32,091 bases of DNA from a virus, in the IMG/VR virus record IMGVR_UViG_3300021962_000387, positions 1 to 32,091 of that record; one strand, written 5' to 3'. The position numbers and the translations under genes were made by a program. The notes beneath the pieces were generated by a model. The model searched no databases. It was not told the DNA's origin and was given only the letters and a program-made list of their open reading frames with translations. Positions 3,902-23,055 of this stretch are shown in pieces (position 1 is the first letter of the stretch; every line of letters begins with the position of its first letter).

Positions 3902-3918
3902 CCAATAATTCATTTTTT

Positions 3919-3926: not shown

Positions 3927-3950
3927 GAATCACAAAACAAGGACTTTACT

Positions 3951-5096: not shown

Positions 5097-5749
5097 TGAA
5101 ACTCATCTGCGAAGTAAACGAAGATCTCAAGATCATTACAGAATCTAATGAAGCAGGTGAAAAACAGTTTTTCCTTGAAGGTATCCTCATGCAGGGTAAC
5201 GTCAAGAACAAAAACGGTCGTATCTATCCAACACAAACACTAGCCAACGAAGTTGCTCGATATAATCGTGAGTTCGTTGAGCAAAACCGCGCTTATGGTG
5301 AGCTTGGTCATCCACAAGGTCCTACGATCAACCTCGAGCGCGTATCTCACATGATCAAGTCACTGCGTCAGGAAGGCGATAATTTCGTCGGTCGCGCAAA
5401 GATCATGGATACTCCATACGGAAATATCGTAAAGAATTTGATGAAGGAAGGAGCCAAGCTTGGTTTCTCTTCACGTGGCATGGGATCGCTAGTAAAAAGA
5501 GGCGATATCATGGAAGTTCAGAACGACTTCTATCTTGCCACAGCTGCTGATATCGTTGCTGATCCATCTGCTCCACAGGCGCTTGCTAATGGAATCATGG
5601 AAGGCAAGGAGTGGGTTTGGGACAACGGCATTCTTGTAGAAAAAGAAGTCGCTCAAATCAAAAAGAGTATCGACGAAGGTTACGGCACAAAAGAAAATCG
5701 TGAAGAAATTCTTCTGCGCGCATTCAATACGTTCCTAAAGAAACTCTAA
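5096..5749 (+). CDS. 21: Prohead maturation protease gp21
   Basis: A 217-residue homologue of T4 gp21 (about 212 residues), the serine protease that digests the scaffold and trims capsid proteins before DNA packaging. The herpesvirus-assemblin-like residues are visible: His72 in GELGHPQG and the Ser125/Ser126 pair in GFSSRGMGSL, with EGILMQGNVKNKNGRIYP (28-45) and DTPYGNIVKNLMKEGAKLG in the expected order. ADIVADPSAP (151-160) supplies the conserved Asp region. It is followed by the scaffold and major capsid genes, as in T4. The enzyme is expected to act inside the prohead and to cut at (L/I)xE|(A/G) sites; one such site is visible in gp23 here. Confidence 0.95.
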   Translation: MKLICEVNEDLKIITESNEAGEKQFFLEGILMQGNVKNKNGRIYPTQTLANEVARYNREFVEQNRAYGELGHPQGPTINLERVSHMIKSLRQEGDNFVGRAKIMDTPYGNIVKNLMKEGAKLGFSSRGMGSLVKRGDIMEVQNDFYLATAADIVADPSAPQALANGIMEGKEWVWDNGILVEKEVAQIKKSIDEGYGTKENREEILLRAFNTFLKKL

Positions 5750-5761
5750 TTACGCCATTTT

Positions 5762-5769
5762 TATAAATA
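5762..5769 (+). promoter_or_regulatory. T4-type late promoter (TATAAATA) for scaffold/capsid genes
   Basis: An exact TATAAATA preceded by a T-run, 41 nt upstream of the gp22 ATG at 5811, with GAGGAG in the leader just before the start. A second late promoter here would allow gp22 and gp23 to be made in excess over the protease. Confidence 0.75.
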
Positions 5770-5810
5770 AACTAGAAGAATCTTCTAATAACCCTGAGGA
5801 GAATATCAAT

Positions 5811-6940: not shown

Positions 6941-8344
6941 ATGGAATCTCTGAACGAATCAATTCAGAAGAAGTGGCAGCCAGTCCTGGAACATCCTGAT
7001 CTGGCTCCCATCAAGGATACACACAAGCGCAGCGTAGTTGCTCAGCTTCTGGAAAACCAGGAGAAGGCTGCTCGTGAAGACGGATTTGGTTCCGGCGGTT
7101 ATCGCGCTCCAGGCCTCCTGGGCGAAGCTGCTCCAATCAACTCAATGGGCACATCATCTTCAACAGCTGGTGACGGCTCGGTCGATACTTTCGATCCAGT
7201 TCTGATCTCGCTCGTTCGTCGTTCGATGCCTAACCTGATCGCATACGATATCTGCGGCGTTCAGCCAATGACAGGTCCAACAGGCCTGATCTTCGCAATG
7301 CGTTCACGTTACTCAGCTCAGAACGGTTCGGAAGCTCTCTTCAACGAAGCTAACACAACCTTCTCTGGTTCAGCTGCTGGTAACACTGCTTCACGTTTCG
7401 TTGTTGGTAACACATCAGGCGGACGTGTTCAGGAAGCTAACGATCCAACACTTCGCGCTTCAGCTGCTACATCTGGTTCATATACTGTTTCAACAGGTAT
7501 GGCTCGTTCAGCTGCAGAACGTCTTGGTGACGGAACTACAGCTGGTGGTAACTTCCAGGAAATGGCATTCAGCATTGAGAAGGTTGCGGTTACAGCAGTA
7601 TCACGCGCTCTCAAGGCAGAATACACAATGGAACTCGCACAGGACCTGAAGGCAATTCATGGTCTTGACGCTGAGACTGAACTCTCAAACATCCTCGCTT
7701 CTGAAATCCTGTCAGAAATCAACCGTGAAGTTGTTCGCACGATCAACTACACAGCTTCTGCTGGTGCTCAGGAAAACGTAACAACGGCTGGAACGTTCAA
7801 CCTTGACGTTGACTCAAACGGTCGTTGGATGGTTGAAAAGTTCAAGGGTCTCCTGTTCCAGATCGAACGCGAAGCTAACCAGATTGCCAAGGCAACCCGC
7901 CGTGGTAAGGGTAACGTTCTGATCTGCGGATCGGACGTTGCATCAGCTCTTCAGATGGCTGGCGTTCTGGATTACACTCCAGCTCTCGCTAACAACCTGA
8001 ACGTTGACGATACAGGTAACACTTTCGCTGGTGTTCTCAATGGTCGTATCAAGGTCTACATTGACCCATACTTCGCATCGTCAGCTGGTAACCAGTATTT
8101 CACACTCGGCTACAAAGGCTCTTCAGCTTTTGACGCTGGTCTGTTCTACTGCCCATACGTTCCTCTCCAGATGGTTCGCGCTATCGGTCAGGATTCGTTC
8201 CAGCCTAAGATCGGTTTCAAGACACGTTACGGAATGGTTGCAAACCCATTCGCAACATCTTCAGCCGACGGCGCTATCGGTGCTCCAAACACCAAGGGTT
8301 ACAACACCTACTATCGTTTCGTCAAGATTTCAAACTTGATGTAA
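6941..8344 (+). CDS. 23: Major capsid protein gp23
   Basis: A 467-residue homologue of T4 gp23 (521 residues), the HK97-fold major capsid protein. Family signatures include MESLNESIQKKWQPVLEH at the N-terminus, DPVLISLVRRSMPNLIAYDICGVQPMTGPTGLIFAMRSRY (about residues 85-125), AEYTMELAQDLKAIHGLDAE (about 226-245) and GFKTRYGMVANPF near the C-terminus. A gp21 cleavage site, LLGE|AAPI, lies at residues 59-66, giving a predicted mature chain from Ala63. The RBS is TAGGAG, 11 nt before the ATG. Codon use looks more C-ending than in the fibre genes, as expected for a very highly expressed gene. A strong terminator follows directly. Confidence 0.97.
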   Translation: MESLNESIQKKWQPVLEHPDLAPIKDTHKRSVVAQLLENQEKAAREDGFGSGGYRAPGLLGEAAPINSMGTSSSTAGDGSVDTFDPVLISLVRRSMPNLIAYDICGVQPMTGPTGLIFAMRSRYSAQNGSEALFNEANTTFSGSAAGNTASRFVVGNTSGGRVQEANDPTLRASAATSGSYTVSTGMARSAAERLGDGTTAGGNFQEMAFSIEKVAVTAVSRALKAEYTMELAQDLKAIHGLDAETELSNILASEILSEINREVVRTINYTASAGAQENVTTAGTFNLDVDSNGRWMVEKFKGLLFQIEREANQIAKATRRGKGNVLICGSDVASALQMAGVLDYTPALANNLNVDDTGNTFAGVLNGRIKVYIDPYFASSAGNQYFTLGYKGSSAFDAGLFYCPYVPLQMVRAIGQDSFQPKIGFKTRYGMVANPFATSSADGAIGAPNTKGYNTYYRFVKISNLM

Positions 8345-8392
8345 TCGAAACCCTCCATGTGGGAGGGGATAAGAAGACGGGTTCAAACCGCA

Positions 8393-8422
8393 AACTGGGG
8401 GATCTTCGGATCCCCCTTTTTT
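8393..8422 (+). terminator. Rho-independent terminator after gene 23
   Basis: GGGGGATC, a TTCG tetraloop, and GATCCCCC form a stable hairpin followed by TTTTTT. This would end the capsid transcript and isolate the next gene, which has its own late-promoter motif three bases downstream. Confidence 0.9.
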
Positions 8423-8424
8423 GT

Positions 8425-8432
8425 TATAAATA
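8425..8432 (+). promoter_or_regulatory. Late promoter (TATAAATA) directly before the tail-tube-like gene
   Basis: An exact TATAAATA immediately after the gene 23 terminator and ending only 5 nt before the ATG at 8438. With T4 spacing, transcription would start at or within a base or two of the ATG, so the transcript would be leaderless. No Shine-Dalgarno sequence is present. Confidence 0.7.
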
Positions 8433-8437
8433 GTCTT

Positions 8438-8986
8438 ATGAGCGCAGTCGAAAATCTACCATCAAACATCAACTTCCTTGGGCAAAACGGTTTTCGATTT
8501 GCAATCAAGAGACTTCCCAGTGTGAACTATTTCTGTCAAGGAGCTACGATTCCTGCGGTAGGAATGAACGCAATCGAAAGCCCAACACCTTTTGCTTCTG
8601 TTCCTCGCCCTGGCGATAGAATCACTTATGATCCTTTGGTTATTCGTTTCAAAGTAGATGAAGATCTAACGAACTACTTCGAGATCCAAAAATGGTTGGA
8701 AGGTTTGGGTCACCCTGATAGCCTACAGCAAACGCGAGATCTATCTAAGAACATCAATAACAATCTTATTGCTGGAACACGCCCAGTAGGTTACTATACA
8801 ACTTTCCTATCTGACGCCACACTTTCTATTCTTACGAGCGCCAAGAACCTCAATAAGAATATCTTCTTTTACGATCTGTTCCCAATCAGCCTAACTGAAC
8901 TGAGTTTTGAGTCGACGAACACTACGATTGAGTATCTTGAGGCTACAGCCACATTCCGATATCGTAAATACGAACTTGAGCAATAA
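8438..8986 (+). CDS. Tail tube (gp19)-like structural protein
   Basis: The start is set at ATG 8438 (MSAVENLPSNINFLGQNGF); an in-frame ATG at 8357 lies upstream of the terminator and would translate through it. The 182 residues match a tail-tube/baseplate-tube type protein of T4-like phages: NFLGQNGFRFAIKRLP, FCQGATIPAVGM, PRPGDRITYDPLVIRFKVDEDLTNYFEIQKWLEGLG, and a C-terminal strand pair ending ATATFRYRKYELEQ. Such proteins stack as hexameric rings around the tail channel (gp19) or start the tube (gp54). Which of the two this is cannot be decided here. In T4 gene 19 lies with the tail genes, so a position just after gene 23 is a rearrangement. Confidence 0.7.
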   Translation: MSAVENLPSNINFLGQNGFRFAIKRLPSVNYFCQGATIPAVGMNAIESPTPFASVPRPGDRITYDPLVIRFKVDEDLTNYFEIQKWLEGLGHPDSLQQTRDLSKNINNNLIAGTRPVGYYTTFLSDATLSILTSAKNLNKNIFFYDLFPISLTELSFESTNTTIEYLEATATFRYRKYELEQ

Positions 8987-9050
8987 TGACCCCTGAACAC
9001 AGTTCTTATTATATCAGCAATCAATCGAGTTGTCAAGACGAAAATAAGCC

Positions 9051-9079
9051 TTGACATTCGTGCATCAATATAGTATGAT
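9051..9079 (+). promoter_or_regulatory. Sigma70-like promoter of uvsY
   Basis: TTGACA (9051-9056), 17-nt spacer, TATGAT (9074-9079). The preceding base gives CTTGACA as in the other promoters of this family. The ATG of uvsY begins 7 nt after the -10 box, where initiation is expected, and there is no Shine-Dalgarno sequence, so a leaderless mRNA is likely. It starts the long recombination/late-sigma operon. Confidence 0.8.
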
Positions 9080-9085
9080 ATCATC

Positions 9086-9523
9086 ATGAAACTAGAAGAT
9101 ATTTACGCCATGTGGGAAACTGATTGCAAGTATGATGACCTCAACTTGGATAAAGAATCCCTCAGCATCTCATCCCTCCACGCCAAATACAATCGCTTGC
9201 TGAGCGAAACGCGCAGCCAGTTGCGTTCTGCTGTAATCAAGAAGAAGTCACACTACAGCACACTCCGCGATTACTATCTTGGCAATCTTAATAATCCAGA
9301 AGACCTAGAACGCATTGGGCGTCAACCATTCCTCAACAAAGTTCTCAAGAACGAAGTGCAGGGCTATATCGACGCTGACGGTGATCTAGTTCGTATGGAT
9401 GAACGTATTGCTCTGCTCGAAGAAAAGGTAGAAGTGATTGTCGAGATCATGAAGTGCATTCACAAGCGAGGTTATGACATCAAGTCCGCTATTGAGTGGA
9501 GAAAGTTTACGAATGGTTTCTGA
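9086..9523 (+). CDS. uvsY: Recombination mediator UvsY
   Basis: A 145-residue, helical, highly charged protein resembling T4 UvsY (137 residues): MKLEDIYAMWETDCKYD at the start, a middle KKSHYSTLRDYYLGN that matches the T4 ALKARLDYYSGR region, and a C-terminal helix with IMKCIHKRGYDIKSAIEWRKF. UvsY hexamers load the UvsX recombinase onto gp32-coated ssDNA during recombination-dependent replication. The next gene is uvsW, as in T4, overlapping by 11 nt. The ATG lies directly at the predicted transcription start; the N-terminus matches T4 UvsY at this point, which supports the start. Confidence 0.85.
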   Translation: MKLEDIYAMWETDCKYDDLNLDKESLSISSLHAKYNRLLSETRSQLRSAVIKKKSHYSTLRDYYLGNLNNPEDLERIGRQPFLNKVLKNEVQGYIDADGDLVRMDERIALLEEKVEVIVEIMKCIHKRGYDIKSAIEWRKFTNGF

Positions 9524-11009
9524 TCTAACACTTACGAAAGTCAATGAAGCTATGCTTCGCGTCGAAGGCGATATGGGTATCGCGCGCGAGCTGTCAGAAC
9601 ATTTGACTTTCGAAGTGCCAGGAGCTAAGTTCTCACCGAAGTATAAGTCGCGAGTGTGGGACGGTAAGATCAGACTTTTGAACTCACGAAACATGCAAGT
9701 TTATGCTGGTCTTGTTCAAGAGATTCAGAAGTTCTGTGATGAACGTGATTATACGTTGGATGTTGATCCAGATCTAGTTGTTACTGAGGAGTTTTCTCTT
9801 GCAGAAGCTAAAGAGTTCGCTGATTCCCTTTCTCTGCCGTTTGTTCCACATGATCACCAGCTTCGTGCATTCGCCCTTGCTATACGTCACGCTCGCGGTA
9901 TTCTTATTTCTCCTACTGCAAGTGGTAAGTCACTGATTGCATACTTGATCGTGAGGTTCTACATTGAAACATATCAAAGTCGCATTCTTATTCTTGTGCC
10001 TAATATCTCTCTTGTTCATCAGCTTACCTCTGATTTTGCTGAATATGGTCTGGACGTGGAATCTTACGTCCATAGAGTATTTGGCGGACAAGATAAACGA
10101 TCTGACAGATTAATTGTAATCTCAACATGGCAGTCGGTCTACGAACTTCCGAAGTCATATTTCGATATGTTTGATGTGATCATTGGTGACGAAGCGCATC
10201 TGTTCAAAGCGCAGTCGCTCACTAAGATCATGACAAACGCAACTAACGTGAAGTATCGTTTCGGTATGACAGGAACGTTGGATGGTAGCGTAGTCAATGA
10301 ACTTGTGCTGACTGGACTGTTTGGTCCTACGCATAAGATCATTGATACAAAGGAGCTCATTGATAGTGGAAAACTTGCAGCAATCAAAGTTAAGTGTCTT
10401 GTTCTCAGCCATCCTATCGAGGAACGTAAGAAGTTGGTTGCTGGAACCTACCAAGATGAAGTCGAGCACATTATTTCTTATCAACCTCGCAATCAATTCA
10501 TTCGTAATCTTGCTGTATCTCTCAGGGGGAATACGCTGATTCTTTATGCTTATGTTGAGAAGCACGGTGAAGTTCTGTATGAAATGATTCGCGAAAAAGC
10601 AGGTGAGCGCAAAGTGTTCTTTGTGCATGGTGGAGTTGACGGTGAAGAGCGCGAAGCGATTCGTGGTATCGTTGAAAAGGAAAGCGATGCAATCATCGTC
10701 GCTTCTTACGGAACGTTCAGCACAGGCATAAATATCAAGAACCTTCATAACGTGATATTTGCGAGCCCGACTAAAAGCAGAATCAGAACGCTACAGTCAA
10801 TCGGTCGTGGGCTTCGCATTTCAGATACAAAAGATAGCATGACGCTGTTCGATATCGCTGATGACTTGTCTCATAATAAGAAAAAGAACTACACGCTGAA
10901 TCATCTTATCGAACGAGTCAAGATGTATAGTTCAGAAGGATTTCCTTACGAGCTACACAATATCAAATTGAAGCAACAAGTTTCTGAAAGAAACCTATTC
11001 AATGATTGA
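9513..11009 (+). CDS. uvsW: UvsW DNA/RNA helicase
   Basis: The start is set at ATG 9513, inside the uvsY 3' end, giving 498 residues (T4 UvsW about 503); an in-frame codon further up (9474) would only add residues overlapping uvsY. The N-terminal domain has KYKSRVWDGKIRLLN (about residues 45-60), typical of the family. Superfamily 2 motifs follow: motif I SPTASGKSL (133-141), motif II DEAH (226-229), motif III GMTGT and motif VI QSIGRGLR (428-435). UvsW unwinds R-loops and branched DNA, shutting down origin initiation and favouring recombination-driven replication and fork repair late in infection. The gene is coupled to uvsY and overlaps the next gene by 8 nt. Confidence 0.95.
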   Translation: MVSDLTLTKVNEAMLRVEGDMGIARELSEHLTFEVPGAKFSPKYKSRVWDGKIRLLNSRNMQVYAGLVQEIQKFCDERDYTLDVDPDLVVTEEFSLAEAKEFADSLSLPFVPHDHQLRAFALAIRHARGILISPTASGKSLIAYLIVRFYIETYQSRILILVPNISLVHQLTSDFAEYGLDVESYVHRVFGGQDKRSDRLIVISTWQSVYELPKSYFDMFDVIIGDEAHLFKAQSLTKIMTNATNVKYRFGMTGTLDGSVVNELVLTGLFGPTHKIIDTKELIDSGKLAAIKVKCLVLSHPIEERKKLVAGTYQDEVEHIISYQPRNQFIRNLAVSLRGNTLILYAYVEKHGEVLYEMIREKAGERKVFFVHGGVDGEEREAIRGIVEKESDAIIVASYGTFSTGINIKNLHNVIFASPTKSRIRTLQSIGRGLRISDTKDSMTLFDIADDLSHNKKKNYTLNHLIERVKMYSSEGFPYELHNIKLKQQVSERNLFND

Positions 11010-11448
11010 ATTTGATAAGACCTACTCTTTCATGATAGACAACATAAAGTTTGGTTCGTTGTCAAATGAAAAGATCATAGACATCTTCAAAGACGGAAGA
11101 GTCGCTTCACATTTCTTAGAAAAGATGTTAGAAGAATGGTTTCCAGAACTAGTTTTCGTTGATGGCAATGGATACGATCACATCAACAAGAAAAGCAAAG
11201 TAAAATATGATCAGAAGTGTTTTACTAAAGGTGGTTGTGGTTTTGCAAAGTCTATTCTAGTTGGTGGTGGGAGAACGTTCAATCTAGCAGAAGCAACTAA
11301 GCATTCAGCAGAAATGAACTATATCATATGCGACATAGTAGACTTTCCTAAAGTTAAAGTAGTCTTTGCTAAAGGCAAGGATCTCTTAACTCGATATCCG
11401 AAATGCAGAATACCATTTAGAGATAGAGAACTCATTTTTAAGGAGTGA
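11002..11448 (+). CDS. Conserved-looking phage protein, possible PD-(D/E)XK-type nuclease
   Basis: A 148-residue protein with a basic centre: VDGNGYDHINKKSKVKYDQK, then CFTKGGCGFAKS, GGGRTFN, and a predicted strand MNYIICDIVDFPKVKVVFAKG followed by LLTRYPKCRIPFRDRELIF. The order Asp (GYD) then a short spacer and Gln-Lys before a strand is reminiscent of PD-(D/E)XK nucleases with a degenerate (E/Q)xK motif. This is a weak structural inference only; I do not recognise a named T4 homologue. It lies between uvsW and the Sm-like gene with overlapping ends, so it is expressed with the recombination genes. A DNA-processing role would fit, but nothing proves it. Confidence 0.5.
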   Translation: MIEFDKTYSFMIDNIKFGSLSNEKIIDIFKDGRVASHFLEKMLEEWFPELVFVDGNGYDHINKKSKVKYDQKCFTKGGCGFAKSILVGGGRTFNLAEATKHSAEMNYIICDIVDFPKVKVVFAKGKDLLTRYPKCRIPFRDRELIFKE

Positions 11449-11828
11449 TGATGGATCAGGGCGAAGTTTATTTTCTAAAACTGAATAGCGGCGAAGATCT
11501 TCTTTGCCAGCTCGTCGGTGACGAAGAAGAATATCTTTTCATAACGCAGCCATATCGTGTAGACCTTATGCAATCTACGGCTACAATGACCGTGACTACA
11601 ACTATCATGAGATGGATTCCATTTGAAAGCCTAATGGAAGAAACTATCTGCCTAGACAAGAAAAACGTCTTGACATATATGGAAGTTGATGATATAGTAG
11701 CTATGAAATATCGTAATACTATCAGCGATCAATCTAAGAAAGAGCGCGAAGAAACAATGGATCGTTTGCTGAGGATGAGCAAGTTATTGCAAGAACCTTC
11801 TTCAAACACTTTCGGAACCCTACACTAA
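11448..11828 (+). CDS. Sm-like (LSm/Hfq-fold) small protein
   Basis: The RBS AAGGAG (11440-11445) precedes three candidate starts: GTG 11445, ATG 11448 and ATG 11451. An ATG start is preferred; 11451 has the better RBS spacing and 11448 overlaps the upstream TGA. The first 60 residues (VYFLKLNSGEDLLCQLVGDEEEYLFITQPYRVDLM) have the strand pattern LKLxxGExLxCxLxxxxxxxLxIxxPxxV of Sm-like proteins in T4-like phages, followed by a strand pair with IMRWIPFE and a helical charged tail. A second protein of this type is at 29342. Sm folds bind RNA or act as ring adaptors; the partner here is unknown. It lies directly upstream of gene 55 (stop and start overlap). Confidence 0.55.
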   Translation: MMDQGEVYFLKLNSGEDLLCQLVGDEEEYLFITQPYRVDLMQSTATMTVTTTIMRWIPFESLMEETICLDKKNVLTYMEVDDIVAMKYRNTISDQSKKEREETMDRLLRMSKLLQEPSSNTFGTLH

Positions 11829-12367
11829 TGACCAAAACTAAGCCCAAAAAGCATTATGTAAACAACAAAGAGCTTTATGCTGCTATGGTTGAATACAAAA
11901 CTTTAGTCAACGAGGCTAAAGACGCAGGTAAGCAGAATCCCCGTATTCCAAATTACATTGGTGAGTGTATCATGAAGATCGCTACTCATCTTGCGTATCG
12001 TCCGAACTTTGCGAACTACACGTTCCGCGAAGAAATGATCTCGGATGGTATTGAGAACTGCTTACTGTATATCAATAACTTCGATCCAAGCAAGTCGCAG
12101 AATCCGTTTGCATACTTTACGCAGATCATCTACTTTGCTTTCATTCGACGCATTCAGAAAGAGAAGAAGCATCTTTACACGAAGTATGCTGCTATTGAAT
12201 ACGCTAACATCATGGGTGAGACGTCTGAGTCTCAGGGAGGTGATAGCGGTTCCTACGATACAGATATCAAGTATGGTGAGTGGTCTAAGGAACAGATGGA
12301 AAAATTCATGGCTGATTTTGAAGCAAGTAAAGGTATCAAGCGCGGAGGTAAGAAAGCATCGGCATGA
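11828..12367 (+). CDS. 55: Late transcription sigma factor gp55
   Basis: A 179-residue homologue of T4 gp55 (185 residues), the divergent sigma70-family factor that directs RNA polymerase to TATAAATA late promoters, aided by the sliding clamp gp45. The region-2-like core is visible at about residues 60-120: TFREEMISDGIENCLLYINNFDPSKSQNPFAYFTQIIYFAFIRRIQKEKK. The C-terminus is short and basic (KGIKRGGKKASA), where T4 gp55 carries its clamp-binding tail. The matching late-promoter motifs in this window (3919, 5762, 8425 and two CTAAATA variants) are its expected targets. It overlaps gene 47 by 4 nt (ATGA). Confidence 0.95.
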   Translation: MTKTKPKKHYVNNKELYAAMVEYKTLVNEAKDAGKQNPRIPNYIGECIMKIATHLAYRPNFANYTFREEMISDGIENCLLYINNFDPSKSQNPFAYFTQIIYFAFIRRIQKEKKHLYTKYAAIEYANIMGETSESQGGDSGSYDTDIKYGEWSKEQMEKFMADFEASKGIKRGGKKASA

Positions 12368-13425
12368 AGATTGCTTTGATTACAGATACGCACTGGGGTG
12401 TTCGTAACGATCAGCTCGCGTTTCTTGACAACAACAAGAGATTCCTAGATGACATTTTCTTTCCGTATCTCGACGCTCATAGCATTGATACTGTTATCCA
12501 TCTCGGTGATCTCGTTGATCGCCGTAAATATCTCAACATCAACACAGCTAAACGCCTGCGTGACGATTTTATATCACCATTACACGCAAGAGGCATCCGC
12601 GCACACCTCATCATCGGAAACCACGATACATACTACAAGAACACGAACTCAGTCAACTCCATTCGAGAGTTTTACGAAAACGATTTCCGCATCTATGAAT
12701 CTGCAGCAGAAGTAGAGTTCGACGGTGTTCCCATACTTTTCTTACCGTGGATTTGTGAGGACAACCGCGAAGACACCCTCAAACTCATTGGTGAAACGAA
12801 TGCTCAAATCGCGTTGGGACACTTGGAGCTCGCTGGTTTTGAAATGTATCGCGGAAGTCCCGTCAGTCATGGCGATGACCGCGTTCTTTTTGATCGGTTT
12901 GATTTGGTATGCAGTGGTCATTACCATCACCGCTCTACTTCTGGGAACATTCATTATCTTGGTAGCCATGCTGAGTTTACTTGGAGCGACTACGATGACC
13001 CTAAAGGATTCCATATATTGGATACGGAAACTCGTGAACTTACGTTAATAGAGAATCCATATAAGATGTTCCGCAAGCTATGGTATAATGACAAAGACAA
13101 AACATCAGATGAAATGATGGATCGTGACTTCAGCAAGTATGCTGGCTCATACGTCAAGTTGATTGTATCAAACAAGGACAATCCATTCGTCTTTGATCTG
13201 TTCACGACAAAGCTGTATGAAGCCGGACCGCTTGAAGTTACTATCGTTGAAGATCATCGTAACATGGACGCCATTGACGAACAGGACTTGTTGAATGAAG
13301 CTGAGGATACGCTGACTATCTTGTCAAAGTATATTGGCACGATTGAGTCTAACGTTGATAACAAAGAGCTTGACAAGTTGATGCGTTCGCTATATAATGA
13401 AGCTCTTCAGATGGAAGTTGAGTGA
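12364..13425 (+). CDS. 47: Recombination endonuclease subunit gp47 (Mre11-like)
   Basis: A 353-residue calcineurin-like phosphoesterase. Metal-binding motifs appear in order: DTHWG (8-12), GDLVDRR (48-54), GNHDTYY (85-91), then LGHLELAGF and SGHYHHRS for the last two His motifs. Together with gp46 it forms the T4 SbcCD/Mre11-Rad50-like complex that resects DNA ends for strand invasion and degrades host DNA. The start overlaps gp55 (ATGA) and the stop overlaps the small gene before 46, so subunit levels are coupled. It is close to the length of T4 gp47 (about 339). Confidence 0.95.
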   Translation: MKIALITDTHWGVRNDQLAFLDNNKRFLDDIFFPYLDAHSIDTVIHLGDLVDRRKYLNINTAKRLRDDFISPLHARGIRAHLIIGNHDTYYKNTNSVNSIREFYENDFRIYESAAEVEFDGVPILFLPWICEDNREDTLKLIGETNAQIALGHLELAGFEMYRGSPVSHGDDRVLFDRFDLVCSGHYHHRSTSGNIHYLGSHAEFTWSDYDDPKGFHILDTETRELTLIENPYKMFRKLWYNDKDKTSDEMMDRDFSKYAGSYVKLIVSNKDNPFVFDLFTTKLYEAGPLEVTIVEDHRNMDAIDEQDLLNEAEDTLTILSKYIGTIESNVDNKELDKLMRSLYNEALQMEVE

Positions 13426-13607
13426 TGGAATTCGTTGAGGATGAAGTTTACGTTGATCGTGAAGGCAACGAATATAAGTATCTTTACAAAACTGGTGGCG
13501 TGACTGTTTTTGAGTCCGCAGATGGTAAGCGAATCGTCCAACACTTTTCTGGGCGATACAGATGGGATGACCAAGATCATCCTCGTGACATTATTGGAAA
13601 GAAATGA
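13425..13607 (+). CDS. Small unknown protein between 47 and 46
   Basis: A 60-residue acidic protein (MEFVEDEVYVDREGNEYKYLYKTGG, then VTVFESADGKRIVQHFSGRYRWDD). The ATG at 13425 overlaps the gp47 stop, and its TGA overlaps the gp46 start, so it is embedded in the complex operon. The alternating strands suggest a small beta-sheet protein. T4 has small unknown genes (47.1, 46.1, 46.2) around here, but I see no specific match. It may be an accessory of the 46/47 nuclease; that is only a location argument. Confidence 0.6.
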   Translation: MEFVEDEVYVDREGNEYKYLYKTGGVTVFESADGKRIVQHFSGRYRWDDQDHPRDIIGKK

Positions 13608-15307
13608 TTCACTTCACTAAAGTCCGTTGGAAGAACTTTCTTTCAACTGGCAACGCATTCACAGAAATTCAGCTAGACAAAAACGACTCTACCCTCATCG
13701 TTGGTGAAAACGGTGCGGGTAAGTCTACGATGCTTGACGCCCTATGCTTCGGTCTATACGGTAAGCCATTCCGTAAGATCAAGAAGGATCAGCTAATCAA
13801 CTCAGTCAACGGTCGTGACGTTGTTGTTGAAATTGAGTTTTCTGTTCACGATCATCAGTATGTCGTAAGACGTGGAATCAAACCAAGTTTATTTGAAATT
13901 ATAGAAGACGGCAAACTGATTGACCAAGACGCAGCTGCGCGTGACTATCAGGAAATGCTTGAGAAGAACATCCTCAAGCTGAGTATGAAGTCGTTCACGC
14001 AGATTGTGATTCTTGGCTCGTCGTCGTTCGTTCCGTTCATGCAGTTGACAACGAGCGTTCGCCGTGAAGTCATCGAGGATCTGTTGGATATCCGCGTCTT
14101 TTCCTCGATGGCACTTCTTCTCAAAGATCGCGTAGCAACTAATCGCGAGGAGCATAAGCTCAATGAACAAGACATCTCTTACACGCAGGAAGGTATCAAG
14201 GCGCAAGAAAAACTTCGCACAGAGCTTGATGAAAAGCGAGCCGAGAAAATTGAGGAGTTCAACGAGCGTATCAAACAGGCTCAAGAGAGTATTACACGCG
14301 AGGAAGCAAGCGCGGCTGCATTGGGATCTGCCATTGACGAGCTAATGAGTCAGTGTGGTGATCGTGACGCAGTTAGCGCAAGAGTTCAAAAAATCTTGAC
14401 GCTCGAGAAGAGCTTGGAGTCTAAGAAAGCAAACGCCCGTAAAACCATCAAGTTCTATACCGAGAACGATGAGTGTCCTACATGCACACAGCATATTGAT
14501 GATCACATCAAGACGGAGAAGATCAGTGAGAAAGAAAAAGCGATCGAAGAAGTTGAAGCCGCGCTTGAAAAGCTGTCTGACGAGCTCTCAAAAGGAGAAG
14601 ATACTCTTGCGTCAATATCAAAGATACAGCAAGATATATCTCGGAAGCAGAATGATCTTAGCTCTAAACTCAACAACATCAAGGTGTATCAAAAAGAAAT
14701 CTCTGTTTACACCAAAGAAATCGACAGTCTTAACAAAACGGAAGCAACCTATACGCAATCCAACATATCTACCTTACAGTCAGATCTTCAACGGTTTTTG
14801 GGGATAAAGGAACGTATCCTTCGCGATAAGGAGATGTATGAACTGGCTACAGTTATCTTGCGTGATAGTGGCATCAAGTCTCGTATCATCAAGCAATACA
14901 TTCCAGTTATCAACAAGTTGGTGAATAAGTATCTAGCAGCCATGGATTTCTTCGTGAAGTTTGAGCTCAATGAACAGTTCGAAGAAAAGATCTTGTCGCG
15001 TCATCGTGATGACTTCACCTACGATTCATTCAGTGAAGGTGAAAAGATGCGTATCGACTTAGCTTTGTTGTTCACTTGGCGTTCTATCGCTCGTATGAAG
15101 AACAGCGCAAGCACGAATCTACTGATTCTAGACGAAGTGTTCGACGCATCACTTGACGCCAATGGTTGCGACGAGTTCTTAAAGATCATTCATAATCTTG
15201 AGGATACAAACATCTTTGTTATCTCTCATAAAGGTGACGTGCTGCACGATAAGTTCAGCAACATCATTCGCTTTACCAAACAGAAAAACTTTAGCAGGAT
15301 TGTATAA
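13604..15307 (+). CDS. 46: Recombination endonuclease subunit gp46 (Rad50/SbcC-like)
   Basis: A 567-residue SMC-like ATPase, close to T4 gp46 (560). The N-terminal half-site has Walker A GENGAGKST (34-42). A long coiled coil (about residues 180-400) is interrupted by the zinc-hook CPTC (291-294), which dimerises two molecules. The C-terminal half has the ABC signature FSEGEKMRIDLALL (about 475-490) and Walker B LLILDEVFDASLD (about 505-517). With gp47 it resects double-strand ends for recombination-dependent replication. The ATG overlaps the upstream stop, and the stop overlaps the next gene's ATG. Confidence 0.96.
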   Translation: MIHFTKVRWKNFLSTGNAFTEIQLDKNDSTLIVGENGAGKSTMLDALCFGLYGKPFRKIKKDQLINSVNGRDVVVEIEFSVHDHQYVVRRGIKPSLFEIIEDGKLIDQDAAARDYQEMLEKNILKLSMKSFTQIVILGSSSFVPFMQLTTSVRREVIEDLLDIRVFSSMALLLKDRVATNREEHKLNEQDISYTQEGIKAQEKLRTELDEKRAEKIEEFNERIKQAQESITREEASAAALGSAIDELMSQCGDRDAVSARVQKILTLEKSLESKKANARKTIKFYTENDECPTCTQHIDDHIKTEKISEKEKAIEEVEAALEKLSDELSKGEDTLASISKIQQDISRKQNDLSSKLNNIKVYQKEISVYTKEIDSLNKTEATYTQSNISTLQSDLQRFLGIKERILRDKEMYELATVILRDSGIKSRIIKQYIPVINKLVNKYLAAMDFFVKFELNEQFEEKILSRHRDDFTYDSFSEGEKMRIDLALLFTWRSIARMKNSASTNLLILDEVFDASLDANGCDEFLKIIHNLEDTNIFVISHKGDVLHDKFSNIIRFTKQKNFSRIV

Positions 15308-15852
15308 TGGAATTACTAAAAGGCAATGATCCACGACTAAAAGAAACGTGTCCTGAGTTTGATTTCGAGAACGGATACTTCGTTGAGACTGGTGTTTCGA
15401 TGGATGCCAAAGATCTGTATGAACTGCTTCGTGACGAGATGATTAGACACAAAGGTGTTGGTCTATCTGCTCCTCAACTTGGTATTATGGTTCGTGCGTT
15501 CGTGATTGGTAATCCTAACGAACCAGAAAGCATCATTGGTGTGTTCAATCCAATCATTACAGATTATGACGAGGAGCAAGTTGTATATGAAGAAGGATGT
15601 GTCAGCTATCCAGGATTGTTCATCAAGATCAAACGTCCGAGAAGTATTCGTGTGCGATACCGTGGATGGAATGGGGAGGCTGATACCGTCCGCTACGAAG
15701 GTTATACAGCACGAGTCTTCCAGCACGAATACGATCACCTCAATGGAATTACTTATCAGACCCGTGCTAATCGTTATCACCTAGATCAAGCTCGCAATTT
15801 CAAAGCTAAGGCAGAACGTAAACTTGAGAATCTCAAGCGAAAAGCTGGATAA
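15307..15852 (+). CDS. def: Peptide deformylase
   Basis: A 181-residue peptide deformylase, which removes the formyl group from N-terminal Met of new proteins at the ribosome exit. All three family motifs are intact: motif 1 GVGLSAPQLG (50-59), motif 2 EGCVSYPG (96-103, metal ligand Cys98) and motif 3 HEYDH (140-144, metal ligands His140 and His144, catalytic Glu141). Full length and intact motifs argue for an active enzyme. Phage deformylases are known in cyanophages and marine phages, where support of photosystem protein turnover or rapid phage translation has been proposed. It is the last base-overlapping partner of gene 46 and lies upstream of two unassigned genes. The C-terminus has a charged helix (NFKAKAERKLENLKRKAG). 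Confidence 0.95.
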   Translation: MELLKGNDPRLKETCPEFDFENGYFVETGVSMDAKDLYELLRDEMIRHKGVGLSAPQLGIMVRAFVIGNPNEPESIIGVFNPIITDYDEEQVVYEEGCVSYPGLFIKIKRPRSIRVRYRGWNGEADTVRYEGYTARVFQHEYDHLNGITYQTRANRYHLDQARNFKAKAERKLENLKRKAG

Positions 15853-15853
15853 G

Positions 15854-16297
15854 ATGTTCGATGAAGTAGGCGTGAGTAAGGAAAAGCTCCACTCATGTCT
15901 ACGAACTATGGGAACTGAACATCTTTTCAATCAGCAAATGAAAGATATGTGGAAACCTGAGTTTCCTACTATCAACTATTGCTATACAGTCTGTGAGTAT
16001 CTGTATTGGTATGTTTGTCAGGCTACAACTGAGTGGGATATCCGAACAACTGATATTCCTAGCACGCCTGGAATCAAGCACTGGTTTCTACGCCGCACAG
16101 ACGGACAAGTTATAGATTTGACTGCAGATCAGTTTGACAACTACGACGAGATCAACTATAATATGTCTAAACGTTCGGGATTCATTCAGTCCGGCTGTAT
16201 AGGACCGAGTAAACGCGCACGAGTTTTGGCTACACTTATGGGACACGATGAAGAATCTTGGAAGCCTACAGTCAATCCCCTCTACTTCTTCGTATGA
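15854..16297 (+). CDS. Unassigned protein with Cys-His-Asp order (papain/transglutaminase-like?)
   Basis: The ATG at 15854, one base after the deformylase stop, is preferred to an in-frame ATG at 15824 inside deformylase. The 147-residue protein has a Cys-rich helix NYCYTVCEYLYWYV (41-54), then KHWFLRRTDGQVIDLTADQF (75-94), and a C-terminal part with SGFIQSGCIGPSKRARVLATLMG. The order Cys43/Cys47, His76, Asp88 and the HWFL...VIDLT strand pair resemble the Cys-His-Asp core of transglutaminase/NlpC-like folds. It could be a cysteine hydrolase, or a conserved fold without activity. I recognise the HWFL/IDLTADQF pattern from hypothetical phage proteins but no function. It overlaps the next gene by 50 nt. 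Confidence 0.5.
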   Translation: MFDEVGVSKEKLHSCLRTMGTEHLFNQQMKDMWKPEFPTINYCYTVCEYLYWYVCQATTEWDIRTTDIPSTPGIKHWFLRRTDGQVIDLTADQFDNYDEINYNMSKRSGFIQSGCIGPSKRARVLATLMGHDEESWKPTVNPLYFFV

Positions 16298-17513
16298 CGA
16301 TTGGCTGAAAGAGCAGACCTTCAAAAATCATGATACTGAAACGGTTCGTCGAACTATCCACGACGAGCTGAAGTCGTTTGGTGAATTGCCTACAGAAGAA
16401 TACATTCTGTGGCAGAAGTGGGAAGAGGTCAACAACCTCTATCCTATGCAAGAAAGTGTGTTGTTTGGTGAACCAGCATATCTAAACGACAAACACGCAA
16501 TCCTGATTCCACAAGTCAAGCAGCTTATGTGGGACGGCGATAACATCGATGATCTCGAACCAGAGGTTATCTGGACTAATGATCCTGCACATAAATCAAT
16601 CAAGGATCATTGGACAGTGCTGCGCGTGATGATTCATACACAGCAGCATTCTGGTTCTATTGGTCGAGGAATGAACTTTATCATTCGTGATCGAAAGACC
16701 AAGAAGTATCTCGGTGTTATCGCCGTGGCATCAGATTTCCTTGATCTGGGTGCTCGTGACGAAAAGATTGGTTGGACTCGTGATCAGCGAACTATCGAGC
16801 AGCGCATCAAGCACACTGCAGTGTGCTCGACCATCGTGCCAGTTCAACCGTTTGGTTACAACTTCCTTGGTGGAAAGTTGCTCGCGCTTCTATGTTTATC
16901 AGATGTCGTTCAAAACAAGTGGAAGGAACTCTACGGTTCACGTCTTGTTGGTTTGACTACGACTTCGCTCTATGGTAAGGATAAGGGCGGTCATGGAATG
17001 TCGCAGTATGACAATCTGAAACACTGGAAGAAGATGGGATACTCACGCGGCGCATCACCTTTGCGTATGTCTATCGCCACGCGCGAGCTCGCGTATGAGT
17101 GGGCGCATGCGAACATTCCAGAAGATTACTTTCACTATCTGATCGAGAAGGGACCAGACGGTGAACCTGTCGTTCGTGATAGACTGAATCGTTTTCATCA
17201 GAAGATCTATCGTGCGCTGAAAATTCCTGGGAACGTATTCACAAGCGATCACGATCGTGGAATCTACTTCGCTTCGCTCTACACAAACGGATACGAGTTT
17301 CTTCGCAACGATATCAAGGAAGAGCAACTGACTCCTGCTGCAGATTTCACCGTGGACTATCTCACGGCGCTTTGGAAAAAGTATGCAACTCATCGCTATA
17401 CCAAGCTGCAGGAAACTAGCCGCGTCAGCGACTCCATTCTCTATTATGACGACATGAGCTGGCTGGATTGGGCGGCGGCTAGGGAAAAGTATCTAAAAGA
17501 CGTAGGAAGGTAA
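16248..17513 (+). CDS. DUF4338 (DruA)-like protein
   Basis: A 421-residue protein whose centre (about residues 135-275) follows the pattern of the DUF4338/DruA family: GRGMNFIIRDRKTKKYLGVIAVAS, DLGARDEKIGWTRDQRTIEQRI, then STIVPVQPFGYNFLGGKLLALLCLSD, WKELYGSRLVGLTTTSLYGKDKGGHGMSQYDNLKHWKKMGYSRG. Regions on either side are unique; the N-terminal part has HDELKSFGELPTEEYILWQKWEEVNN. DruA is known from the Druantia anti-phage system, and DUF4338 proteins also occur in phages and transposons without a known reaction. The start at ATG 16248 gives a 50-nt overlap with the previous gene; the next in-frame Met is near 16446. It is the last gene of the uvsY-led operon. Family assignment is by pattern memory, and function is unknown. 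Confidence 0.55.
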   Translation: MKNLGSLQSIPSTSSYDDWLKEQTFKNHDTETVRRTIHDELKSFGELPTEEYILWQKWEEVNNLYPMQESVLFGEPAYLNDKHAILIPQVKQLMWDGDNIDDLEPEVIWTNDPAHKSIKDHWTVLRVMIHTQQHSGSIGRGMNFIIRDRKTKKYLGVIAVASDFLDLGARDEKIGWTRDQRTIEQRIKHTAVCSTIVPVQPFGYNFLGGKLLALLCLSDVVQNKWKELYGSRLVGLTTTSLYGKDKGGHGMSQYDNLKHWKKMGYSRGASPLRMSIATRELAYEWAHANIPEDYFHYLIEKGPDGEPVVRDRLNRFHQKIYRALKIPGNVFTSDHDRGIYFASLYTNGYEFLRNDIKEEQLTPAADFTVDYLTALWKKYATHRYTKLQETSRVSDSILYYDDMSWLDWAAAREKYLKDVGR

Positions 17514-17558: not shown

Positions 17559-17585
17559 AGAGCGAAAGTAACACAAAAAGTTACA

Positions 17586-17614
17586 AAAAAAGTGGCTGAA
17601 AAGCCACTTTTTTC
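17586..17614 (+). terminator. Rho-independent terminator ending the uvsY-to-DUF4338 operon
   Basis: AGTGGCT (17591-17597), GAAA loop, AGCCACT (17602-17608), with flanking A-run and T-run extending the stem and giving a U-tract. A promoter begins 13 nt further on, marking a clean operon boundary. Confidence 0.9.
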
Positions 17615-19261: not shown

Positions 19262-19284
19262 AAGTCATAATGAAGGAGACACTC

Positions 19285-21576
19285 ATGGCTGACACACCGA
19301 AACTCGTAGATCCTGGCTCGCTCGACAAGCTCGCGAAGCTGTTGGCTGCTGAGAACATTATGGTCGAGCATCGTCCGATCAAGACAGCCTACTTCGACGT
19401 GAAGAATCGCGTTCTCGCTCTGCCTATGTGGAAGCAGATGACTGAGACGCTGTATCATATGCTTGTGCTCCATGAAGTCGGTCATGCGCTGGAAACTCCC
19501 GCTGACGGCTGGAAGGGCGCGATCGACAAGGTCAAAGAAGAGGAAGAGTCCGCATACGTTGCGCAGACATTCCAAGGCTACCTGAACGTTGTCGAAGACG
19601 CTCGCATTGAGCGCAAGATCAAGAACAAGTTTCCTGGTTCACGTCGTGACTTCCTCGAAGGCTACGACTGGTTGCATGAACAGGACTTCTTCTCTGTTAA
19701 GTCTCGCGAAGTCAATGAGCTGTCGCTGATTGATCGTATCAATCTCTATTTCAAGCTCGGCGCACGTATCCGTATCAAGTTCAACGAAGAAGAAGCTGTG
19801 TTCGTGAAACGAGCAGAGCAGACGCTCACGTTCGACGAAGTCGTAAAGCTGGCTGAAGATCTTCTAGCCTATGCTAAGAAGAAGAAGGAAGAGAACGAAG
19901 ATGAAGAAGAACAGCTGAGCATCACTATCAAGTCTGAAGAAGGTGAAGATGAATCTGATGAAGATTTTGACTTCGATGATGAAGGCGAAGAAGATAGCGA
20001 AGCTTCTTCTGGTTCGGAAGAAGGTGCTAAGACTGAATCAAAGCAGAACGAAGGCGGTGACGGCAAGCTCGGAGGCAGCTCTAGCAAGCCTATGGAAGAA
20101 GCAACGACTGATCAGTCCATGTCTGAGCGCATGGAAGAACTGCTCGATCCTTCTTTGGCTAATCGCACGTTCAGCTATATCCACTTCCCGAAGGACTTGA
20201 CTCACGAAGAGTTCACGGTCAGCTATCGCAAGCTGCTGGATATCATCAACAGCGACTTAGCCAAAGCTAAGGGCGGTGCTGAAGTTATCAGCTATCGTAA
20301 CACGCTGCTGAACAAGTTCCGCTCTGAGAACAACTCCGCCATCAACTATATGGTCAAGGAGTTTGAGCGTAAGAAAGCAGCTCTGTCGTATAGCCGCACG
20401 AAGCAAGCGAAGACTGGTGTTATCGACGTGAACAAGCTGCACAGCTACAAGTTCAACGATGATATCTTCAAGCGCCTGAACATCGAACCTACTGGCAAAA
20501 ATCACGGTGTTGTCGTTGTTCTCGATATGTCTGGTTCTATGTCTGCGAACTATCGTGGTGCGATGGATCAGCTGATCTGTCTTGCTATGTTCTGTCGTCG
20601 CGTTGGTATTCCTCATCGTATCTACGGTTTCACTCAGGTGACCAATCGTTTCTACAAGGAAGATCCGAATCGCTACAAAGCAAAGCAGAACAAGCTCCAG
20701 GCTATCAAAGCGCGACTGAGCAACAAGTCGTTCGTGTTCCCTGATACTGGCTTTGATCTTGTTGAGTTTTTCCACGAGTCTATGTCGTTGAAGGACTTCA
20801 ACGCGATGGTTGGCACGTTGCTCATTTCATCGAAGATGATGGAAATGGACATGAACGAAATGATCGACGGTCAATACATTCGTTACTGGATCAACGAAAG
20901 AATGCAAGCTGATTCTTGGTCTACTGCGTTCGAATATCTCGGTCTCGGTGGAACTCCGCTCAATGATGCGATCCTCGTGTCGCGTGATCTGATGGCTAAG
21001 TTCCGCAAGGAAAAGAATATTCAGATCATGAACTTCGTGTGCATCACCGACGGCGAGAGCAATCACTCGTCGTTCTATCGTGCCCATTCGAATGGTGGTC
21101 ATAATAACCATTATGAATCGCTTCCGTTTGGTGGTTCAAAGCACGTGTCGATCTTCGTAGACGAAGAATCTCGTATTCAGACTTCTATGAAGTTCAATAA
21201 TGCGCATGAGATCACTGGTATGTTGGCGCGCACTGTTCGTCAGTCTCAAGATGCTAACTTCGTTGGCTTCTATATCGTAGGTGGTTCGTATGACGTTCGT
21301 CACGTTTCGTATCGCTACCTGAGCTACACCGAAGGTGTTGCGTTCCAAGAGAAGTGGAAGAAGAACAAGAGCGCAGTGATCCCTAACATGCTCAACTTCG
21401 ATGAGTTCTATATCATCAACGGTGGTCGTAATCTTCGTAGCCAACAAGCTGCGTTCGATGAAGCCAACAATGATATGAAGAAGGGTCAGCTCGCCAGAGC
21501 GTTCATTTCCGCCCAGAATAAGCGTGGTGCAAGCCGTGCAGTTCTCGGTAAATTCATCGAAAAGATCGCTGCATGA
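19285..21576 (+). CDS. CobT-like VWA protein with N-terminal HEXXH metalloprotease motif
   Basis: ATG 19285 is chosen because AAGGAG lies 8-13 nt before it; an ATG at 19270 precedes that RBS. The 763 residues divide into three parts. The N-terminal domain has HEVGH (63-67) plus a downstream VVEDARIER, matching a zinc-peptidase HEXXH...E pattern. A low-complexity acidic linker follows (about 200-260). The C-terminal von Willebrand A domain has the MIDAS motif DMSGS (414-418) and TDGES (about 590). The gene is paired with the AAA+ gene at 21871. Such pairs are annotated cobT/cobS in cyanophages after cobaltochelatase subunits, but resemble general MoxR/VWA systems. A role in remodelling or cutting a host or phage protein complex is plausible; cobalamin synthesis is not shown. 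Confidence 0.85.
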   Translation: MADTPKLVDPGSLDKLAKLLAAENIMVEHRPIKTAYFDVKNRVLALPMWKQMTETLYHMLVLHEVGHALETPADGWKGAIDKVKEEEESAYVAQTFQGYLNVVEDARIERKIKNKFPGSRRDFLEGYDWLHEQDFFSVKSREVNELSLIDRINLYFKLGARIRIKFNEEEAVFVKRAEQTLTFDEVVKLAEDLLAYAKKKKEENEDEEEQLSITIKSEEGEDESDEDFDFDDEGEEDSEASSGSEEGAKTESKQNEGGDGKLGGSSSKPMEEATTDQSMSERMEELLDPSLANRTFSYIHFPKDLTHEEFTVSYRKLLDIINSDLAKAKGGAEVISYRNTLLNKFRSENNSAINYMVKEFERKKAALSYSRTKQAKTGVIDVNKLHSYKFNDDIFKRLNIEPTGKNHGVVVVLDMSGSMSANYRGAMDQLICLAMFCRRVGIPHRIYGFTQVTNRFYKEDPNRYKAKQNKLQAIKARLSNKSFVFPDTGFDLVEFFHESMSLKDFNAMVGTLLISSKMMEMDMNEMIDGQYIRYWINERMQADSWSTAFEYLGLGGTPLNDAILVSRDLMAKFRKEKNIQIMNFVCITDGESNHSSFYRAHSNGGHNNHYESLPFGGSKHVSIFVDEESRIQTSMKFNNAHEITGMLARTVRQSQDANFVGFYIVGGSYDVRHVSYRYLSYTEGVAFQEKWKKNKSAVIPNMLNFDEFYIINGGRNLRSQQAAFDEANNDMKKGQLARAFISAQNKRGASRAVLGKFIEKIAA

Positions 21577-21870: not shown

Positions 21871-23055
21871 ATGAAGGACGGTCAGAAGAAGTTTCTCGAG
21901 CTTGCTGTTGCTAAGTTCGGTGCAGGTAATACGGTTGATCGTAACGAGATCGTTGCGTTTGCTGAAGAACAGGGTGTTCGTGGCGTCGACTTCTGGTGGA
22001 TGATCAAGCCAGAGTATCGCGTGACTCGTGGTTTCTATCGTATTCCTGGCGGTGAATCTCATGTTGAGATGGCTGCTGATATCGTTCCTATCTCTATCCG
22101 TCGTGAGACTCCTGTGGCTCCCAAGAAGTTTGATCCGAATGCAGTTTCCGAGCATGACTATGCTCAGGTTCCGGCTAAGGATAAGCACTACGTTCCGTTC
22201 GGTGAATTCAAGATGATTGAGAAGATCGTTGCTTCTGGCAAGTTCTTCCCTGTGTTCATCTCTGGTCACTCAGGCAACGGCAAGACGTTCATGGTCGAGC
22301 AGGTGTGTGCCAAGGTTAAGCGTCCGATGATTCGTGTTCAGATGTCGCGTGAGACTGACGAGGACGATCTCATCGGTGGCTTCCGTCTCATCGACGGTGA
22401 GACTAAGTTCATGAAGGGTCCAGTGCTTCGCGCGATGGAGATCGGTGCGTTGCTTCTCATCGACGAAGCTGACCGTGCTGATCCTGGCAAAGCGATGTGC
22501 TTGCAGGGTATCCTCGAAGGCAAGCCCTACTACATGAAGAAGACTGGTGAGATTGTCGAAGCTGCTCATGGCTTCAATGTGATTGTGACTGCTAACACGA
22601 AGGGTCGTGGTTCTGACGACGGTCGTTATGTTGCGGCTACGATGCTCGACGATGCTTGGCTTGAGCGCTTCCCGATCACTATCGAACAGGAATATCCGAC
22701 TGCTGCTATCGAGAAAAAGATCTTGACAAACTATCTCAGTGATGATACAATTACTGAAGATGATAAGGCGCTCATTGAGCATCTTACTGTTTGGTCGGAA
22801 ATCATCCGCAAGACTTTCACTGAAGGCGCGATTGACGAGCTCATCTCAACTCGTCGCCTTGTTCATATCGCACAAACGTATCGCATGATCGGCGATCGCA
22901 TGAAGGCTATCCGTTTGTGCATCAATCGTTTCGACGAAGAGACGAAGACTGCGTTCCTCGATCTCTATGCTAAGGTTGATCCTACGATCAATCCCGTCCC
23001 CGAGACTCCGGCTGCTCCACCCGCAGCGGAGAACACTCAGGAAGTTTCTTTCTGA
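21871..23055 (+). CDS. cobS: CobS/MoxR-like AAA+ ATPase
   Basis: A 394-residue AAA+ protein. The N-terminal 60 residues form a small winged-helix-like domain (VAKFGAGNTVDRNEIVAFAEEQG). The ATPase core has Walker A GHSGNGKT (132-139), Walker B LLLIDEAD (Asp198, Glu199), sensor 1 in VTANTKG and an arginine-finger region (WLERFPITIEQEYP). A helical lid and a Pro/Ala-rich tail follow (PVPETPAAPPAAENT). CobS is the ATPase of cobaltochelatase and homologues are common in T4-like cyanophages. Here the partner is the metalloprotease/VWA protein at 19285, so the pair may work as a MoxR-VWA-type remodeller. The RBS is AAAGGTG before ATG 21871. Confidence 0.88.
   Translation: MKDGQKKFLELAVAKFGAGNTVDRNEIVAFAEEQGVRGVDFWWMIKPEYRVTRGFYRIPGGESHVEMAADIVPISIRRETPVAPKKFDPNAVSEHDYAQVPAKDKHYVPFGEFKMIEKIVASGKFFPVFISGHSGNGKTFMVEQVCAKVKRPMIRVQMSRETDEDDLIGGFRLIDGETKFMKGPVLRAMEIGALLLIDEADRADPGKAMCLQGILEGKPYYMKKTGEIVEAAHGFNVIVTANTKGRGSDDGRYVAATMLDDAWLERFPITIEQEYPTAAIEKKILTNYLSDDTITEDDKALIEHLTVWSEIIRKTFTEGAIDELISTRRLVHIAQTYRMIGDRMKAIRLCINRFDEETKTAFLDLYAKVDPTINPVPETPAAPPAAENTQEVSF
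22723..22751 (+). promoter_or_regulatory. Possible internal promoter inside the CobS-like gene
   Basis: CTTGACA (-35 at 22723-22728), 17-nt spacer, TACAAT (22746-22751), inside coding sequence. It fits the same rule as the intergenic promoters and could raise expression of the winged-helix and S21 genes downstream, neither of which has a visible promoter of its own. It may also be chance. Confidence 0.4.

Follow-up and report, generated by a model that had tools for sequence, protein, structure and literature searches.

What does a relative of the Druantia protein DruA do in the recombination operon of a phage, and does the small gene that overlaps it take part? The question is raised by an IMG/VR record of 32,091 bases (the whole stretch, called the window below), a fragment of a T4-like phage whose gp23 is closest to that of Pelagibacter phage Mosig (64%).

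The operon and its DruA-like gene

The gene order in the window is gp23 ... UvsW, an unknown gene, gp55, gp47, gp46, peptide deformylase, a small gene that we name Y, and the DruA-like gene. Downstream lie small ORFs, then a VWA-type protein, an AAA ATPase, gp45 and gp44.

9474..11009, + strand: UvsW helicase (UvsW_N, 7e-17)
11828..12367, + strand: gp55 late sigma factor (phrog_234, 3e-61)
12364..13425, + strand: gp47 recombination nuclease subunit, a metallophosphoesterase
13604..15307, + strand: gp46 recombination nuclease subunit, Rad50/SbcC-like
15307..15852, + strand: peptide deformylase (Pfam, 5.6e-34), the usual upstream neighbour of the DruA-like gene
15854..16297, + strand: Y, a YunG-like Cys-His-Asp protein of 147 aa, ATG start
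16248..17513, + strand: DruA/DUF4338-like protein of 421 aa with a predicted GNAT fold (PF14236), ATG start
16248..16297, + strand: overlap of Y and the DruA-like gene, 50 nt (41-50 nt in relatives)
19270..21576, + strand: large protein, here called VWA ('peptidase' in the annotation of relatives), a conserved downstream neighbour
21871..23055, + strand: AAA (CobS-like) ATPase (AAA_5, 1.4e-21), a conserved downstream neighbour

The initial annotation had placed two ORFs overlapping by 50 nt after gp46 and deformylase; the coordinates and the neighbours agree with it, and both ORFs lie on the + strand. Both ORFs are real and conserved across independent contigs. Their proteins are 69-100% identical in six or seven other IMG/VR contigs, where the overlap recurs with 41-50 nt, so the gene pair is not a product of chance; Y taken singly is 79-100% identical across 7 IMG/VR contigs. 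A strong hairpin with A/T-rich flanks (17585-17614) stands directly 3' of the DruA-like gene and may be the end of the operon.

The DruA-like gene turns up repeatedly in the recombination/replication operon of T4-like phages or, in cyanophages, in the clamp-loader cluster. Its phage branch occurs in at least 595 IMG/VR stretches and in the cultured phages Mosig, HTVC008M and S-PRM1. Among 143 contigs fetched by the DruA-like protein, most loci with recognisable neighbours show the order gp47-gp46-(deformylase)-DruA-(VWA-AAA), which is identical in the pelagiphages Mosig and HTVC008M. Deformylase is found immediately 5' of the DruA-like gene in 38 of 115 DruA-anchored loci, and VWA is the first shared downstream gene in 30. 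In the Ignavibacteria phylum, the phage DruA profile gave a single weak match across 198 genomes.

The window gene belongs to the branch that lies beside gp46/deformylase (alpha). A second branch (beta, phrog_19197) is placed between gp44 and gp62 in cyanophages; its member from S-PRM1 scores 38.8 bits against PF14236, above the cut-off of 27. Several T4-like phages hold two DruA-like paralogues, for example contigs L026, L023 and L062. In HTVC008M an alpha and a beta gene (86116-87258 and 99535-100656) are found, the alpha in a deformylase-like position and the beta by the polymerase.

Y, a small protein with a predicted catalytic set

A possible cysteine-hydrolase order of residues had been noticed in Y, and the order stood up to alignment and modelling. 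C43, H76 and D88 are invariant across 10 sequences from phages, one archaeon and bacteria; two near-identical contigs depart from this, with Phe in place of the Cys (GHFH for GHCH). The structure prediction suggested for this protein gave an AlphaFold model with a pLDDT of 86.3, in which a helix begins at C43 and H76 falls within a strand.

15980..15982, + strand: codon of Cys43, the predicted nucleophile, at the N-terminus of helix 43-54 (model)
16079..16081, + strand: codon of His76, in an HWF motif and strand 75-81
16115..16117, + strand: codon of Asp88, in a DLTADQF motif

Y matches phrog_12251 (4e-7) and the YunG family PF24585 (1e-4), the latter with 22.9 bits, below the Pfam cut-off of 27. 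Members of both families have the same Cys, His and Asp (L103, for instance, within PF24585) and a DLTxDQ[FY] motif, whereas the phage forms possess an N-terminal half of their own. A literature search on YunG found nothing relevant. The Cys-His-Asp order and the secondary structure fit the papain/transglutaminase pattern. The leading fold matches are weak (Z of 4.0 for LapG, 3.6 for PeiP, 2.9 for a transglutaminase and 2.8 for a papain-like toxin) and come with no match in sequence, a likeness too weak for membership among these thiol enzymes. On its sequence, Y is a divergent YunG-type protein with a predicted Cys-His-Asp set in the papain/transglutaminase order. A PDB sequence match to staphylococcal protein A was set aside as a chance likeness of a short helix, since the stretch concerned (GFIQS...PS) is native to the YunG family.

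Related domains also appear in fused forms. In phiCbK (L296, 3971-4642) a YunG-like domain is joined to a Mor-type HTH, between the genes of DNA polymerase I and an exonuclease, and in Asanoa a Y relative is fused to a NUDIX domain. A 735-kb phage (L181, LR756501.1) has the domain inside a 1237-aa ORF (3113-6823), together with what by eye are an apparent nucleotide deaminase and a tRNA nucleotidyltransferase/HD domain.

One-sided coupling of Y to DruA

Pairwise searches with Y of the window reached just seven contigs, all of its own clade, and at first indicated no co-occurrence. A YunG-like profile reversed this picture by revealing a divergent sister subfamily of Y in other DruA-bearing phages. 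Searching IMG/VR with the sister subfamily alone yielded 257 stretches, of which 80 were kept. Among T4-like phages of IMG/VR, DruA is present in 44/44 Y loci that reach at least 700 nt beyond deformylase, a count made on contigs that are fragments, with finite sensitivity and with Y seeds taken from DruA-bearing loci, a possible source of search bias. In the other direction, Y is present in 9 of 38 DruA-anchored loci spanning UvsW to DruA and missing from 29. It was found in 0/40 informative control loci, anchored on gp46 of Melnitz, none of which carries DruA either (Fisher p of 9e-4 for 9/38 against 0/40, relatedness ignored).

Marine phage records give the same result. All 12 that bear Y (11 of Synechococcus and one single-cell virus) are among the 28 DruA carriers listed for cyanophages and marine phages; gp23 is present in about 450 cyanophage records. 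The 12 records amount to about three lineages, and the chance of such an overlap with DruA is about 2e-4.

On a tree of 73 DruA proteins the distribution of Y calls for 8 changes, at least 6 of them with firm branches, and these repeated gains or losses count towards a coupling. Within T4-like phages, then, Y is found only with DruA, and DruA often without Y: the coupling is one-sided. The DruA-like gene does not require Y, as Y is absent from most DruA loci. The proposal of a two-gene system survives in that Y implies DruA; the two are no fixed pair, and the constant neighbours of DruA are gp46, deformylase and VWA/AAA, while Y moves within the region. The three things on which that proposal had been made to depend, a DUF4338 match, a conserved Cys/His/Asp set and co-occurrence, were all found.

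Could Y be an independent accessory gene, one that inserts in a permissive region and has no joint action with the DruA-like protein? We regard this as quite possible, if on the doubtful side. Y occupies at least five positions according to clade (before gp55, between gp55 and gp47, between deformylase and DruA, after DruA, and between VWA and AAA). The 29 DruA loci that lack it point the same way. Outside T4-like phages its relatives do without DruA, in phiCbK-like phages and the 735-kb phage, and in Myxococcus phage Mx1, known from a tblastn list only. Against independence, no T4-like contig, marine record or control locus in the counts above has Y without DruA, and phage S-T4 holds both genes despite a distance of about 90 kb. 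On balance, the arguments for and against a functional link between Y and the DruA-like gene weigh about equally.

A probable early promoter inside Y

A perfect sigma-70-type promoter lies within Y, upstream of the ATG of the DruA-like gene at 16248.

16134..16162, + strand: TTGACA-17-TATAAT, within Y
9051, 11670, 13370, 16134, 18245, 19233, 21812 and 22723, + strand: near-perfect sigma-70 sites (11-12/12, spacer 17)
9036, - strand: near-perfect sigma-70 site

Its bases are kept at 11-12/12 in seven relatives (L001-L006, L086), spelled by Phe-Asp and Tyr-Asn in codons that are identical across all seven. The + strand of the window has eight sites of at least 11/12, all with a spacer of 17, where 0.4 are expected. 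Several stand a little 5' of gene starts, and the eight are likely early promoters of the phage. Over all loci, a promoter upstream of DruA occurs in 18/148, against 6% by chance; the enrichment being modest, we treat the Y-internal promoter as a feature of the clade. In the window clade, the DruA-like gene is probably served by an early promoter of its own, of the host-sigma type; its conservation suggests that the DruA-like protein is made early and in part independently.

The DruA-like protein and phage Mu Mom

Likeness to DruA/DUF4338 had been proposed and is borne out. The 421-aa protein matches PF14236 (DruA, formerly DUF4338) over residues 124-278 with an E-value of 3.5e-15 and 56.4 bits, above the Pfam gathering cut-off of 27, and also matches PADLOC DruA (1.7e-12) and phrog_19197 (4.5e-29). 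Its AlphaFold model (pLDDT 84.9, pTM 0.83) contains the beta-alpha-beta order typical of GNATs.

16560..17060, + strand: GNAT core, residues 105-271 (model secondary structure; VIA-align range 100-366)
16845..16862, + strand: QPFGYN, residues 200-205, candidate acyl-CoA phosphate loop, GNAT motif A-like
17001..17042, + strand: SQYDNLKHWKKMGY, residues 252-265, GNAT motif B-like

The motifs QPxGxN, GGKL, TTSLYG, SQYD and W(K)KMG are kept in an alignment of 40 relatives with 22-96% identity. Residues R170, Q200, N205, K210, T238-S240 and S252-D255 are invariant in these 40 diverse sequences and lie near the expected active site. Within QPFGYN, a putative equivalent of GNAT motif A, positions Q200, P201, G203 and N205 do not vary; within SQYDNLKHWKKMGY, a putative equivalent of motif B, S252-D255, K258 and G264 are invariant.

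Nearly all the best VIA-align rows for the model are GNATs, with Z of 8-9.6. The top solved match is Mom of phage Mu (8bv8; Z 9.6, 171 residues, 4.0 Å) and the second-listed is SpeG (Z 9.1), the top rows being tied within about 1 Z unit. A Foldseek search against the PDB gave no E-value below 0.001, and its top match, malonyl-CoA decarboxylase, was discarded (TM 0.22, rmsd 26 Å). In BFVD, the Mom of a Salmonella phage was matched with an E-value of 8e-4. Judging from the profile match and the model, the product of 16248-17513 is very likely a DruA relative with a GNAT fold. The fold itself is not new, as DUF4338 has already been called a GNAT domain (PMC10853773).

Mu Mom (PF25680), an enzyme of DNA adenine modification, shares the GNAT core. 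Direct profile comparison of the phage DruA family with Mom gave no match (hhalign probability 0.2%); the profiles are related by way of IS66-linked DruA. The profile of IS66-linked actinobacterial DUF4338 proteins scores 84 against the phage family (best of 15 shuffles, 18) and 66 against Mom (best shuffle, 20), in single comparisons whose hhalign E-values are not database E-values; the position beside IS66 was checked for two of these proteins. Mom S124 is the serine for which the 8bv8 title describes an inactive Ala mutant, and IS66-linked DruA has an invariant Ser at the aligned position. The phage branch has Gly at this position and another residue in place of Mom D149; hence its fold is related and it is not a Mom. 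The DruA-like protein has no Pfam match to PF25680 either, and as no direct homology was found we dismissed its identification as Mom.

The closest viral structures to the model in BFVD are from giant viruses, Faunusvirus (A0A3G4ZXG3, E 5e-20) and Yasminevirus (A0A5K0UAJ3, 7e-16); these model-based matches suggest that the DruA-like family extends into eukaryotic viruses.

A possible acyl-modification pathway

We propose that the locus encodes a phage DruA-type GNAT acyltransferase in a T4-like operon, with an optional thiol-enzyme partner, Y; as a whole, this reading falls somewhat short of an even chance. The DruA-like protein would transfer a small acyl group from acyl-CoA either to a base in nucleic acid or to a protein bound to DNA, and this could mark or protect phage DNA, or gp46/47 and the replication machinery. 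Y, as a small papain/transglutaminase-type enzyme (Cys43-His76-Asp88), would serve the same pathway, for instance as the enzyme that hydrolyses or exchanges an amide or acyl group; a shared pathway is made probable by the restriction of Y, in T4-like phages, to those with DruA. We infer the use of acyl-CoA, the target on DNA or DNA-bound protein and the place of Y in the pathway, and we put forward a DNA-directed role for the DruA-like protein tentatively.

The acylated substrate might instead be a protein such as the host RNA polymerase, a ribosomal protein or a part of the replisome, in the service of host take-over. Most GNATs act on protein or small-molecule amines, and many of the VIA-align matches are protein or polyamine acetyltransferases. 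The frequent neighbour, peptide deformylase, is an enzyme of protein N-termini, and the early expression suggested by the conserved promoter would also suit this role. Yet Mom, which heads the structural matches, modifies DNA; bacterial relatives are found beside DNA enzymes, and the phage copies beside gp46/47 or the clamp loader. We consider action on such proteins rather unlikely.

A further alternative, that the protein is a catalytically dead GNAT which binds DNA or acts as a scaffold within the recombination complex, draws on the motif A-like loop, which ends in Asn and not Gly/Ala, and on the replaced key residues of Mom; it appears improbable in view of the many invariant polar residues near the expected active site.

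The prediction of an acyltransferase lends itself to a test by mass spectrometry on virion DNA, since the phage branch is abundant, lies in a known operon and has cultured carriers. Y, confined in T4-like phages to those with DruA, offers a second handle on the chemistry. It is a more speculative and on present evidence unlikely extension that T4-like phages of aquatic bacteria have an undescribed module that acylates their DNA or the proteins bound to it, the GNAT being the writer and Y an optional editor of the added group. If true, bacterial DruA would be a DNA-acting acyltransferase related to Mom.

DruA-like phage proteins were known before, from cyanophages (PMC12774648) and from a Mosig gene annotated as DUF4338. 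In the literature searched we found no report of the place of the alpha branch in the operon, of the profile bridge between DruA and Mom, or of Y as a partner found only with DruA; the recurrent Cys-His-Asp partner seems to be new.

Druantia and other contexts of DruA

The initial annotation also raised inter-phage competition, with DruA known from an anti-phage system. Neither such competition nor a Druantia-type defence gained support from the evidence. Druantia type I comprises DruA, DruB, DruC, DruD and the DruE helicase. Scanned with PADLOC, the ten larger proteins of the window include no DruB-E and nothing like DruE, and the locus is not a Druantia system. Druantia DruA and the window protein are alike in their profile match above the curated cut-off, and the motifs GR, RD..IGW, GK, TTSLYG and SQY[DN] are common to the phage protein and two bacterial DruA proteins (L199, L198). 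The window protein differs by its phage replication/recombination operon, its own N-terminal region and the missing DruB-E partners. A 2026 paper on Druantia (PMC13316683) describes the components other than DruE as having no recognised domain. The Phold paper (PMC12774648) lists Synechococcus phage DruA-like proteins (phrog_19197), known by structure, as defence-like; they are of the same family as the window gene, but of the beta branch. That the gene is a phage-borne weapon, a Druantia piece turned against competing phages, finds favour in those cyanophage proteins and in the closest curated family being Druantia DruA, and is very improbable given the missing DruE-type helicase, the retention of the gene in a core operon of diverse phages and the presence of the same family beside IS66 transposases.

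DNA enzymes are the common thread of the phage and bacterial DruA contexts examined. In L199, as in Druantia type I, the bacterial DruA adjoins a DEAD helicase. In L198 (G135:C1:1178000-1196000, 7735-16774) it is followed by a NurA nuclease, a HerA helicase, a UvrD/PD-DExK protein and a type III methyltransferase, in what looks like a DruA-containing DNA-processing cluster unlike Druantia I-III. In two Actinobacteria (L200, L201), short DUF4338 proteins directly adjoin IS66 transposase genes; beside IS66, the annotation 'DruA' probably marks a transposon gene and not defence.

Other genes share the slot around gp46 and deformylase. In methylophage Melnitz, which has no DruA, the place between gp46 and deformylase is taken by a DUF1599 protein, described as 'nucleotide modification associated' (L303, 7716-8024), which is no more than a hint, and Mosig has three 2OG-Fe(II) oxygenases around gp46/deformylase (L178, 2900-6322). 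From these two cases, the gp46/deformylase slot seems to be a hot spot for possible modification enzymes.
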